In this document: piece after piece, positions 14,326 to 16,555 of the stretch
Position numbering within the stretch: position 1 is the stretch's first letter
Layout of the letters: every line of letters begins with the position of its first letter
From: Acidobacteriota bacterium
Lineage (GTDB): Bacteria > Acidobacteriota > Terriglobia > Acidiferrales > UBA7541
DNA length: 64,000 bases
Direction of reading: 5' to 3'
Assembly: GCA_003223215.1 (NCBI GenBank)
Contig: QHYH01000093.1
Coordinates: forward strand, 62,001-126,000
The notes under the pieces: generated by a model
Told to the model about the DNA's origin: nothing
The model's database searches: none
What the model saw: only the letters and a program-made list of their open reading frames with translations
Position numbers and translations under genes: made by a program

Positions 14326-14641
14326 AATTGAAGTTCACCTGCCCATGCACGTGCGCGGACGCGACGCGTGCGGCGCCACCTTTGAGGAAGATACCTCCAG
14401 TGAAAATCTTTGCCGCGGCGGCGCGGCTTTCTTGACACGCTTCGACATGGCCATCGGTTCGGACCTCGAGATTCGCATTCCATTCTCGAATTATGCTGCG
14501 CGGCGGGGCGATGCAGACTTCTCCACGTCTGGACGCGTGATCCATGTTCGCGATGCCGCTTCGTTGGGGGAAAGGTTAGTGGGCGTGCAGTTCACCGGCC
14601 CGCGGTTCCCGCGGGTCTTTCGGTCGGAATCCACTGGCTGA
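14279..14641 (+). CDS. PilZ-domain protein (c-di-GMP receptor candidate)
   Basis: A 120-residue single-domain protein. RQRSERRIEV near the N-terminus supplies the RxxxR motif of PilZ domains. The second motif, normally D/N-x-S-x-x-G, is present in a loosened form (DTSSENLCRGGAAF). A closing GRVIHVRDA...VGVQF strand matches the end of the PilZ beta-barrel. PilZ proteins bind cyclic di-GMP and act on motility or exopolysaccharide machinery; stand-alone copies are numerous in Acidobacteria. ATG 14279 follows a GTGAGGAT ribosome-binding site that lies inside dusB. The imperfect second motif leaves c-di-GMP binding uncertain. Confidence 0.75.
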   Translation: MGPGSGSAARQRSERRIEVHLPMHVRGRDACGATFEEDTSSENLCRGGAAFLTRFDMAIGSDLEIRIPFSNYAARRGDADFSTSGRVIHVRDAASLGERLVGVQFTGPRFPRVFRSESTG

Positions 14642-14705
14642 GCTATTTCTTTCGCTCACCGGTCAGTCTCTGGACTTAGTCCGTGCGTCTGATGTCTTCC
14701 TTTAC

Positions 14706-14952
14706 CATGTGGGCCGTAAAGCCTCGGCGTTTTTAGGCCGAGGATATAAGGCCACTCTTTTCTTTTCCTTTCCGTACTGTTCTATATTTCTTGTGTCTGA
14801 ACCGACCTAGGGGCGGGCAGCCCAAAAGTAAAGCCTCTTCGTGGTCCTCCGCTGAAGTAGGGCGGTTGTGGGAGGAACCCACCGAAGCCTTCTGGGGAAA
14901 ACAAAGCGAGAGGCCGTAGGAATCCTCGCCGCTTGCGGCGGGGAGGATGTCA
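14706..14952 (+). mobile_element. TnpB-less IS200/IS605-type element (solo omegaRNA/PATE-like)
   Basis: A 247-base element without a transposase gene. The left end carries a perfect 7-bp hairpin (14722-14728 with 14737-14743, cctcggc/gccgagg) followed by atataaggc. I recognise this arrangement from left ends of IS605/IS1341-type elements. The right end carries an imperfect hairpin (14922-14948) ending in gggaggatgtca, the conserved right-end sequence of many TnpB elements. The five bases before the left end are TTTAC, a T-rich target/TAM-like site of the kind used by this family. There are no target duplications, as expected for this mechanism. Boundaries are inferred. No tnpA or tnpB lies anywhere in the window, so it would have been mobilised in trans. 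Confidence 0.75.
14808..14952 (+). ncRNA. Putative omegaRNA (reRNA) scaffold
   Basis: The 3' half of the element resembles TnpB-associated guide RNA scaffolds. It is structured and GC-rich, with segments recalling known scaffolds (cctccgctgaagtagggcgg near 14847, ggaggaacccaccgaagcc near 14872, ggccgtaggaatcctc near 14912), and ends at the right-end hairpin and gatgtca. In known systems the guide begins immediately after this end, so the predicted guide would start at 14953 (cctcctaagaaatgtg...) and be provided by flanking DNA. The 5' boundary is a guess. Expression and a partner nuclease are not shown by the sequence. Confidence 0.6.
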
Positions 14953-15960
14953 CCTCCTAAGAAATGTGTTGAGGTACCAGCTGTTCCCGAAGGGATCCCT
15001 TACGCCCGCCGAGCGGTCGCCATAGGGCTTGTCCGTTGGCGGCTCAACGGAGATGGCCCCAGCCCGCAGGGCTTGCGCGTACATGGCGTCAGCGTCTGGG
15101 ACATAAACGTGCAGCAGGCAGGGCTTTGGCTGATACTCTCCGTGGGCTTCGTCGATTTCGAGCGTGGCGTTGCCGATCCGCATGGTAGCGTGCATGACGA
15201 TTCCCTCCGGCGATTTGTGCACGCCCACCGCTTGCGCCCCGAATGCCGCTTCCATGAACGGAATCATCTTGTGCGCCTCGCGAACGTGCAAATACGGTTG
15301 CACGCTACGCAGTCCTTCGGGTCCCGGCGTCCATCCTTTGGGTGTAGCGATGTACCAACGATTGCCAAATGCGTCTCTGAGGGCGCCCCAGCGATCGCCT
15401 GAAGGATGGTCGTCGGTTGGCCTGTAAATCGCGGTGGCGCCTGCCTCGAGGGCCCGGTCAAACGTGGCATCGGCGTCGTTGACGTACAGGTGGATGTCGG
15501 TTGGAGCCGGCGAAACCTGCTGATTCGCGTCTGCCGTTTCGATGACGCCGTTGCCGATGGCCACTTCCGCATGCATCAACTTGCCGTCCGGCATAGGCAC
15601 GCGCAGCCGTTCGGCCGCGCTAAAGGCCTTCTTCAAGAACTCGATGAACTCGGACGCGCCGTTGACGATGATGTAGGGCGTGATGGAGGTAAAACCCGGC
15701 CGCATGTAGTGGACGGCCCTCGCTGGCACTGCCGCTACAGATGATTCCGAACCCTCGCGCATGGACATGGACGCTCTCCTTTGCAGACTGGATTTGAGTG
15801 CGGCTCGAAACTTTTGTCGCGGGAGCAGCCGCAACTCTCGCGCGATGGCTGTCAGTCGCCGAAGGTCGCGGTGGGGCGCCTTTTCCGGGCGTGGCTCGAG
15901 TGACACGAGCATGGCCCTCACAACCTCGTCTAATTGTTCGAAGAGGGGACGCCTAGGCAT
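14950..15960 (-). CDS. Double VOC-domain (PhnB-like) protein with a helical N-terminal extension, partner of the sigma factor
   Basis: A 336-residue protein. Residues 1-75 are a charged, helical extension (LFEQLDEVVRAMLVSLEP; LRRLTAIARELRLLPRQKF) seen in acidobacterial proteins of this type. Two VOC/glyoxalase-like domains follow (about 85-205 and 215-332), each with the PhnB-type ending: DAFGNRWYIAT and DPFGNSWYLNT. Start ATG 15960 overlaps the end of the sigma factor gene by 8 bases, implying translational coupling and a functional link. ECF sigma factors with linked or fused accessory domains are known, but the role of this pair is unknown. The stop codon (TGA, 14952-14950) lies inside the inserted element; with the element removed the frame would continue nine codons (VKEDIRRTD) to a stop. 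The protein is thus probably slightly truncated. Confidence 0.8.
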   Translation of the reverse strand: MPRRPLFEQLDEVVRAMLVSLEPRPEKAPHRDLRRLTAIARELRLLPRQKFRAALKSSLQRRASMSMREGSESSVAAVPARAVHYMRPGFTSITPYIIVNGASEFIEFLKKAFSAAERLRVPMPDGKLMHAEVAIGNGVIETADANQQVSPAPTDIHLYVNDADATFDRALEAGATAIYRPTDDHPSGDRWGALRDAFGNRWYIATPKGWTPGPEGLRSVQPYLHVREAHKMIPFMEAAFGAQAVGVHKSPEGIVMHATMRIGNATLEIDEAHGEYQPKPCLLHVYVPDADAMYAQALRAGAISVEPPTDKPYGDRSAGVRDPFGNSWYLNTFLRR

Positions 15961-16555
15961 GGCGGCCCTCCATTCGCGCTCGCAATCGCTCGAGCGCGCG
16001 CAATTGCAGTTGCTTGATGGCTCCTTCGCTTTTGCCAAGCCGCTCCGCGATTTCCCGGATGCTGCGCTGGTCGACGAAGCGCTCGTGAACGACGCGTTGC
16101 TGAATTTCCGGAAGCTGGCTTACCAGTCGGAACAACCGCGCGCGGTGTTCGATGGCGCGAATGTCGAGATGCACGCCGGGATCGGCGAGGTCGTTGGGCA
16201 TAGAATGTTCGCGAGATGCCCGCTTGGAGCGATCGATGACAGCGTTCGCTGCGATCCGCAGCAGCCAGGCCGCGAAGGGCACTCCGCGCCACTCGTAGGT
16301 CTTCAAATTGGCGAGCGCCTTGTAGAACACTTCAGACGTCACGTCTTCAGCGGTTACGCGGTCGTGTACGCGGCCGGCCACGAAGCCGTACACGCGGTCG
16401 AAATGCAATTCGTAAAGCGCGTCAAATCTCGCCGGATCGTTTTGCGCCGCTTCGACAAGCCGGCGCTCTTCCGCCGATGCTGTAGCGCCCGCCTTGTCAG
16501 GCGCAGGGCTCTGGAGAGGAGCTTTTTCACTTCCTCGGCGTCCGGTGGCCTTCAT
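15953..16555 (-). CDS. RNA polymerase sigma-70 family factor, ECF type
   Basis: A 200-residue sigma factor with region 2 (about 40-115: ARFDALYELHFDRVYGF, AEDVTSEVFYKAL, FAAWLLRIAANAVID) and region 4 (about 140-190: LPEIQQRVVHERFVD, SIREIAERLGKSEGAIKQL). Regions 1.1 and 3 are absent, which defines ECF. ATG 16555 has an ideal AGGAG ribosome-binding site four bases upstream; the in-frame sequence above it (NLQKKCRNFF) is not sigma-like. It overlaps the VOC gene by 8 bases. Upstream (minus strand) lies GTAACTTTTT near 16590, which resembles ECF -35 elements (often containing AAC); autoregulation is possible but unproven. Confidence 0.9.
   Translation of the reverse strand: MKATGRRGSEKAPLQSPAPDKAGATASAEERRLVEAAQNDPARFDALYELHFDRVYGFVAGRVHDRVTAEDVTSEVFYKALANLKTYEWRGVPFAAWLLRIAANAVIDRSKRASREHSMPNDLADPGVHLDIRAIEHRARLFRLVSQLPEIQQRVVHERFVDQRSIREIAERLGKSEGAIKQLQLRALERLRARMEGRHA

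Follow-up and report, generated by a model that had tools for sequence, protein, structure and literature searches.

The element and its insertion site

In this study, we revisited a short element without genes of its own in a window of 64,000 nucleotides (the whole stretch of DNA that was analysed) from the genome of an Acidobacteriota bacterium. It is preceded by a dusB-like gene and by a short ORF whose end is at 14641, and followed by a VOC-like ORF on the minus strand (14950–16038); both gene names come from a reading of the translations rather than from a family search. The element itself is non-autonomous, 248 bp long and located directly 3' of TTTAC (Table 1). The stop codon TGA of the VOC-like ORF is supplied by TCA of the element (14950–14952); judged by eye, the former stop would have been TAA from TTTAC, and the length of the protein is apparently unchanged by the insertion.

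Table 1. Positions of the element and its parts in the window
Feature	Positions	Strand	Basis
TTTAC, target/transposon-adjacent motif, host DNA	14701–14705	+	Sequence inspection
Whole non-autonomous element, PATE-type, IS605-like	14706–14953	+	Empty site in G018; copies
Left end, hairpin and GGATATAAGGC	14706–14752	+	Sequence, folding, copy alignments
Linker, fast-changing, with weak promoter-like TTCTTT-17-TATATT	14753–14803	+	Copy comparison; no promoter in stricter scan
Solo-specific 5' leader, hairpin 14810–14814/14820–14824	14804–14830	+	Not found in 18 tnpB loci
OmegaRNA scaffold	14831–14952	+	tnpB-linked homologues, covariation, folding
Relic C-terminal codons of tnpB, ASSWSSAEVGRLWEEPTEA	14833–14889	+	By-eye alignment to G018 TnpB ACSQSSAEVRPSWQAPTEG
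Right-end hairpin	14924–14946	+	Folding, covariation
Predicted guide; in the host flank, antisense to the 3' end of the VOC-like ORF	14954–14971	+	Sequence, empty site

The features named in the preliminary description, TTTAC and a hairpin at either end, are all present in the sequence, and both end hairpins are predicted by folding of the window element. The left-end hairpin has the arms CCTCGGC and GCCGAGG (14722–14728 and 14737–14743) and is followed by ATATAAGGC; the right-end hairpin terminates in GGGGAGGATGTCA, and the right end, with which the 149-base block 14804–14952 closes, reads GATGTCA. Hairpins near both ends are what characterizes PATE- or MITE-type members of the IS200/IS605 group. 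The ORF list of the window holds no ORF of 80 aa or more within the element, in agreement with the earlier view that it carries neither tnpA nor tnpB.

The boundaries follow from a genus-mate (G018, locus L181), in which the syntenic neighbourhood lacks the element and represents an empty site. In the window the joint reads TTTAC followed by CTCCTAAGAAATG, and in the empty site CTAC followed by CTCCCAAGAAATG, which places the element at 14706–14953 without target duplication and the start of the guide at 14954; one C is common to both sides of the joint, and the cut could equally be placed one base leftward. The element had initially been described as a unit of 247 bases ending at 14952, with a guide from 14953; its start is retained, and its end and the guide each move by one base. 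Insertion 3' of a short fixed motif without target duplication, as observed at this one empty site, is also the mode of IS200/IS605 elements. A search with the right flank gave a match in 23 of 61 genomes, the host included, and in one of these (G032) the flank matches on the right side only. TTAC lies at most 22 nt 5' of the left end at 42 of the 53 places recognized by a strict left-end pattern among the 133 examined; these 53 include one or more plainly false matches.

Copies, leader and RNA structure of the family

A covariance model of the block 14804–14952 (R1), built from 48 aligned solo blocks that had been picked for an alignment (A1), picks out 48 host places with E values of up to 0.1, the window copy included, and the search for other copies that had been suggested thus shows the element to be one of dozens. 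A BLAST search of the host also gave 48 matches, some of which are two pieces of one copy, and 20 further matches are near full length with 82–93% identity. In 13 other genomes, chosen because they had matches, R1 finds 139 places, 85 of which were examined, those omitted being mostly weaker. Within a class-wide draw of 399 genomes, 14 have an R1 match, namely 11 of the host's genus (the host among them) and three of family f11 (G365, G297 and G395); the copies in G297 and G395 are linked to tnpB, and none of the four copies examined from the 12 in G365 is. At 47 of the 48 host places (two with less than 100 nt of upstream DNA) and at 73 of the 85 places examined in relatives (one with 117 nt), no upstream tnpB was detected. 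Both a likeness to IS200/IS605 elements and omegaRNAs and related copies in acidobacteria were thus found, the absence of which would have spoken against the original proposal.

Most solo copies share a leader: its strict pattern is present in 82 of 120 solo copies (30/47 in the host and 52/73 in relatives) and in 0 of 13 tnpB-linked copies, and a profile search did not find it in 18 tnpB loci (best E value 2.8). The exact leader pattern occurs in 25 stretches among genome contigs, all titled Acidobacteria MAGs and many of them gp2, in a search from which records of the host genome were possibly left out; none was found in viral contigs. The outer pair of the leader hairpin is G-A in the window copy. 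In a tree of 123 scaffolds, all 13 tnpB-linked scaffolds and one tnpB-less, leaderless copy (G024:C149) fall on one side with an ultrafast bootstrap value of 100, and FastTree supports the same split with 0.984 on 130 rows, these being the rows among 133 that were long enough for the respective tree. The best −35/−10 score upstream of the leader has a mean of 6.88 of 12 compared to 6.06 in shuffles, the highest of 200 of which reaches 6.30; since the copies are related and the shuffles did not preserve dinucleotides, this excess is only suggestive. Several copies in G011 and G015 have TTGATT-17-TAAACT or TTGCCT-17-TATATT at this place, the box is weak in host copies, and a strict promoter scan of the window found none in the linker.

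Some copies have an unusual make-up. In L018 (G000:C248:9699–9939) and L082 (G000:C174:208–450), the left end and linker diverge from the main subfamily and the leader and scaffold are almost identical to it, a pattern that resembles the outcome of an exchange of the guide block from one element to another. L101 (G000:C104:80817–81307) consists of two elements of different subfamilies, arranged head to head with their right blocks about 200 bases apart. L086 and L087 (on G000:C163 and G000:C99) are derivatives of about 145 bases that have lost the left hairpin; a shared GTAAAGCC forms the junction between their left end and scaffold. The copies G017:C184:17141–17282 and G028:C48:2339–2480, from the genomes of two species, have identical flanks over 290 and 120 bases, possibly owing to cross-contamination of MAGs or a very recent transfer.

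RNAalifold predicts 27 pairs on the aligned blocks, 16 of them with two-sided changes. Paired cells amount to 96.7% against 82.7% in shuffles, the covariation score is 0.382 against 0.148, and two-sided changes number 162 cells against 43.6, with far lower values in slid controls, although these controls overstate the signal because the rows are related and the alignment that was counted had also supplied the structure. The number of further pair types is ordinary (37 against 34.9 in shuffles, 97 of 500 of which reach 37). Two-sided changes are also found outside the end hairpin, in helices 1, 2, 4 and 5, and the family hence has the conserved RNA structure of a TnpB omegaRNA. The sister copies L005 and L009 are more stable than all 200 shuffles (z −3.3), whereas the window copy has a z value of −0.97 over its full length and of −1.56 over the block (13/200 shuffles). 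Its minimum-energy fold differs from that of the sisters and loses the UCUCGG/CCGAGA stem, the 50-nt piece with this stem being predicted at −9.8 instead of −15.6 kcal/mol. Among its deviations from the host consensus, three fall in the scaffold and one in the leader, and the folding predictions indicate that the scaffold of this copy is damaged.

The Rfam search suggested in the preliminary description gave no match above the gathering score in the window. The family HgcC (RF00062) was rejected as an assignment for 14842–14966, with 23.3 bits against a cut-off of 50 and an E value of 0.0023. HgcC nevertheless resembles the scaffold and right end below that cut-off, and it may itself be an IS605 right-end RNA, a view on which nothing was found in the literature among the matches listed.

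Relationship to tnpB and tnpA genes

In three relatives (G018, G030 and G017), uninterrupted TnpB frames overlap this scaffold at their 3' end; the frames are 400 aa long in G018 and G030 and 397 aa in G017. These proteins carry OrfB_IS605, TNB and HTH domains and match the solved structure 8bf8, which we take to be ISDra2 TnpB, with an E value of 1.5e-47; an AI-designed nuclease (9yyg) matches better. The motifs GLDWG, EDL and NAD, which presumably hold the RuvC residues of TnpB, are present in the proteins of G018 and G017. Given this position of its homologues in relatives, the solo scaffold is by sequence an omegaRNA homologue, for which transcription, TnpB binding and guided cleavage are predicted, and together with the covariation this bears out the earlier assignment of the right end to an omegaRNA scaffold. 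A trace of tnpB is also visible in the window copy, where ASSWSSAEVGRLWEEPTEA and ACSQSSAEVRPSWQAPTEG of the G018 protein are identical at 11 of 19 positions when aligned by eye.

The ends likewise resemble those of elements with tnpA or tnpB, which, with the copies and the empty site, supports the IS200/IS605-TnpB type proposed from the sequence. The right end resembles the ends of the G018 and G030 tnpB loci (nhmmer E values 8e-17 and 2e-17), and the left end resembles those beside two decayed tnpA genes (L034 and L035) and the G018 tnpB (nhmmer E values 2e-7 to 3e-5 among the loci searched). In the host, these two decayed genes are the only tnpA genes adjoined by left ends clearly similar to that of the element. 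The host has 12 tnpA matches, three of them uninterrupted and of full length (on C195, C116 and C42), and none of the three has a clearly matching left end. The tnpA gene on C190, which has one stop, shows a fair left-end match, and that of its intact relative on C116 is weak (5.0 bits and E 2.8; E 0.097 in a second search). L027 (G000:C116:43945–44298) encodes an uninterrupted Y1 TnpA of 146 aa, and its left end has a weak similarity to that of the solo elements, on which it is a candidate for moving them in trans.

The sole tnpB-linked R1 place in the host, C116:68097–68257, is a decayed remnant, other host tnpB matches are 28–36% identical, and an intact tnpB with a matching right end, which had been called for in the host genome, was not found in the assembly. 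This assembly is 97.65% complete, and repeats may break it. Several host tnpB genes are cut off by the end of their contig, the C25 gene has its right end beyond the contig, and those right ends that can be read look different. Given this negative result, the dependence on a TnpB encoded elsewhere, as first put forward, is conjectural for the host. TnpB service looks to have been lost there, leaving the family stranded at least for TnpB, and movement in trans by a host TnpA may still occur.

A probable guide RNA apart from its nuclease gene

We propose, with a probability of about 0.82, that the element is a PATE/MITE-type non-autonomous relative of IS605. It is best read as a stand-alone omegaRNA gene that TnpA would move and TnpB would serve in trans. 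According to this model, a tnpA-tnpB element would have lost both genes and retained the ends cut by Y1 TnpA, with insertion after TTAC and no duplication, as well as the whole omegaRNA scaffold; most copies carry the solo-specific leader, often behind a promoter-like box. Internal transcription through the right end would yield an omegaRNA with flanking DNA as its guide, and a TnpB encoded elsewhere would bind this RNA and cut the empty site left by excision, the repair of which would restore the element. Such transcription, and the action of TnpB and TnpA in trans, seem slightly more likely than not.

A different possibility is that the family is a MITE purely at the DNA level, of which TnpA needs the ends and in which the scaffold is a passenger that never serves as a guide. 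That no intact host tnpB with a matching right end was found would fit this explanation, and so would four insertions that G015 and G017 have in common, with similar flanks: in three pairs the block differs at 13/144, 15/135 and 8/128 sites, compared to 6/452, 22/542 and 24/545 in the upstream and 5/181, 13/181 and 10/184 in the downstream flanks. Only in the fourth pair, in which the upstream flanks do not align, does the block change less than the downstream flank (2/144 against 7/185), and orthologous blocks are therefore not better kept than their flanks in three of the four pairs. Against it stand the conservation of the block of 149 nt, with two-sided changes in helices beyond the end hairpin and with fewer changes than in the linker when host copies are compared, and sister copies far more stable than shuffles. 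Private substitutions in 16 aligned host copies (L018, L082 and L020 omitted) number 4/416 in the leader, 20/1956 in the scaffold, 14/778 in the left end and 27/709 in the linker; leader and scaffold together (24/2372) differ from the linker, a pyrimidine tract that aligns poorly, with P=4e-6, and scaffold and left end are not separated (P=0.09). The order of the regions is the same for all substitutions with the three omitted copies included. We consider the purely DNA-level explanation unlikely. The poor conservation of orthologous copies suggests rather that conservation acts on the spreading family than on each copy, as it seems to do here.

The same comparisons bear on domestication, an option left by the preliminary description, in which the guide RNA would serve the host as a repressor or defence guide. 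A scaffold conserved without tnpB and insertions shared by two species could be taken in its favour, but a guide kept by selection for a remote target was found neither by flank clustering, nor by the search for second sites, nor in the orthologous copies: among 47 host copies with downstream DNA no mutually similar flanks were detected at E 1e-3, the host genome offers no further exact match to the window guide, and the shared copies fare no better than their flanks in three of the four pairs. At three mismatches this guide has two other sites against one in the control, and nothing suggests a host target. With the stem damaged in the window copy as well, domestication is highly improbable. 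Equally hard to credit is an origin of the copies by separate, recent deletions within full IS605 elements, with no lasting solo family; the shortened copies joined at GTAAAGCC and the G024 copy that groups with tnpB-linked scaffolds speak for it, but the confinement of the leader to solo copies and the fully supported separation of the scaffolds oppose it. Returning to the stand-alone omegaRNA gene, the lack of an intact host tnpB with a matching right end, the 47 differing guides and the poor fold suggest that the window copy is probably a relic.

Elements of this kind have been described before. A PATE-like IS605 element of Halanaerobium hydrogeniformans (PMC7290912) is about 271 nt long; it lacks tnpA and consists of a left end with a hairpin, the final 58 nt of tnpB and a whole right end. 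Ours has the same composition of left-end hairpin, tnpB 3' remnant and whole right end without tnpA; unlike that element, for which one copy is given, it exists in dozens of copies in several species, with a leader not seen in tnpB-linked copies and with evidence of RNA covariation. The reRNA or omegaRNA of ISDra2 TnpB, as outlined in PMC8612924, is about 150 nt long and comes from the 3' end of tnpB and the right end, with a guide from the flank and a motif at the left flank, which in IS608 is TTAC. The scaffold, predicted flank guide and left-flank motif are alike here, whereas tnpB is missing from our element. TnpB guide RNAs are, according to PMC10278001, cut from tnpB mRNA, a route that is closed to an element without tnpB. 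The available text of PMC12558985 makes no mention of PATE, HgcC or in-trans action, and the passages of PMC11870625 and PMC10711439 hold nothing bearing on a solo TnpB guide RNA. Among the matches listed, by titles and abstract openings, no literature on a solo TnpB guide-RNA family in acidobacteria was found, a result from which novelty cannot be concluded.

Guide RNAs separate from their nuclease genes are also known with another nuclease or host. Altae-Tran and colleagues reportedly described stand-alone omegaRNAs of IscB in 2021, and Meers and colleagues are said to have discussed PATEs with Geobacillus TnpB in 2023; the guide RNA in both cases stands apart from the nuclease gene, as it does here.

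The element is therefore of a known kind, a PATE-type element, in an unusually informative form, namely a many-copy solo omegaRNA family with its own leader. In soil acidobacteria, this family looks like a guide RNA living apart from its own nuclease. Its many gene-less copies open to experiment the question of whether a guide RNA is able to propagate as a non-autonomous element with the help of a nuclease acting in trans, the kind of step that is needed on the way from TnpB towards separate guide and nuclease genes, and the leader, the scaffold and the TnpB proteins of relatives provide defined parts for a test of service in trans. More tentatively, and with somewhat less than even confidence, the family might be a lasting lineage of selfish stand-alone omegaRNA genes, which split from the tnpB-borne ones before several species of the genus separated, acquired its own promoter and leader hairpin, and spread as a parasite of TnpA and TnpB encoded elsewhere. 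If this is true, guide and nuclease would evolve apart here, as the separate guide and effector genes of CRISPR systems do.
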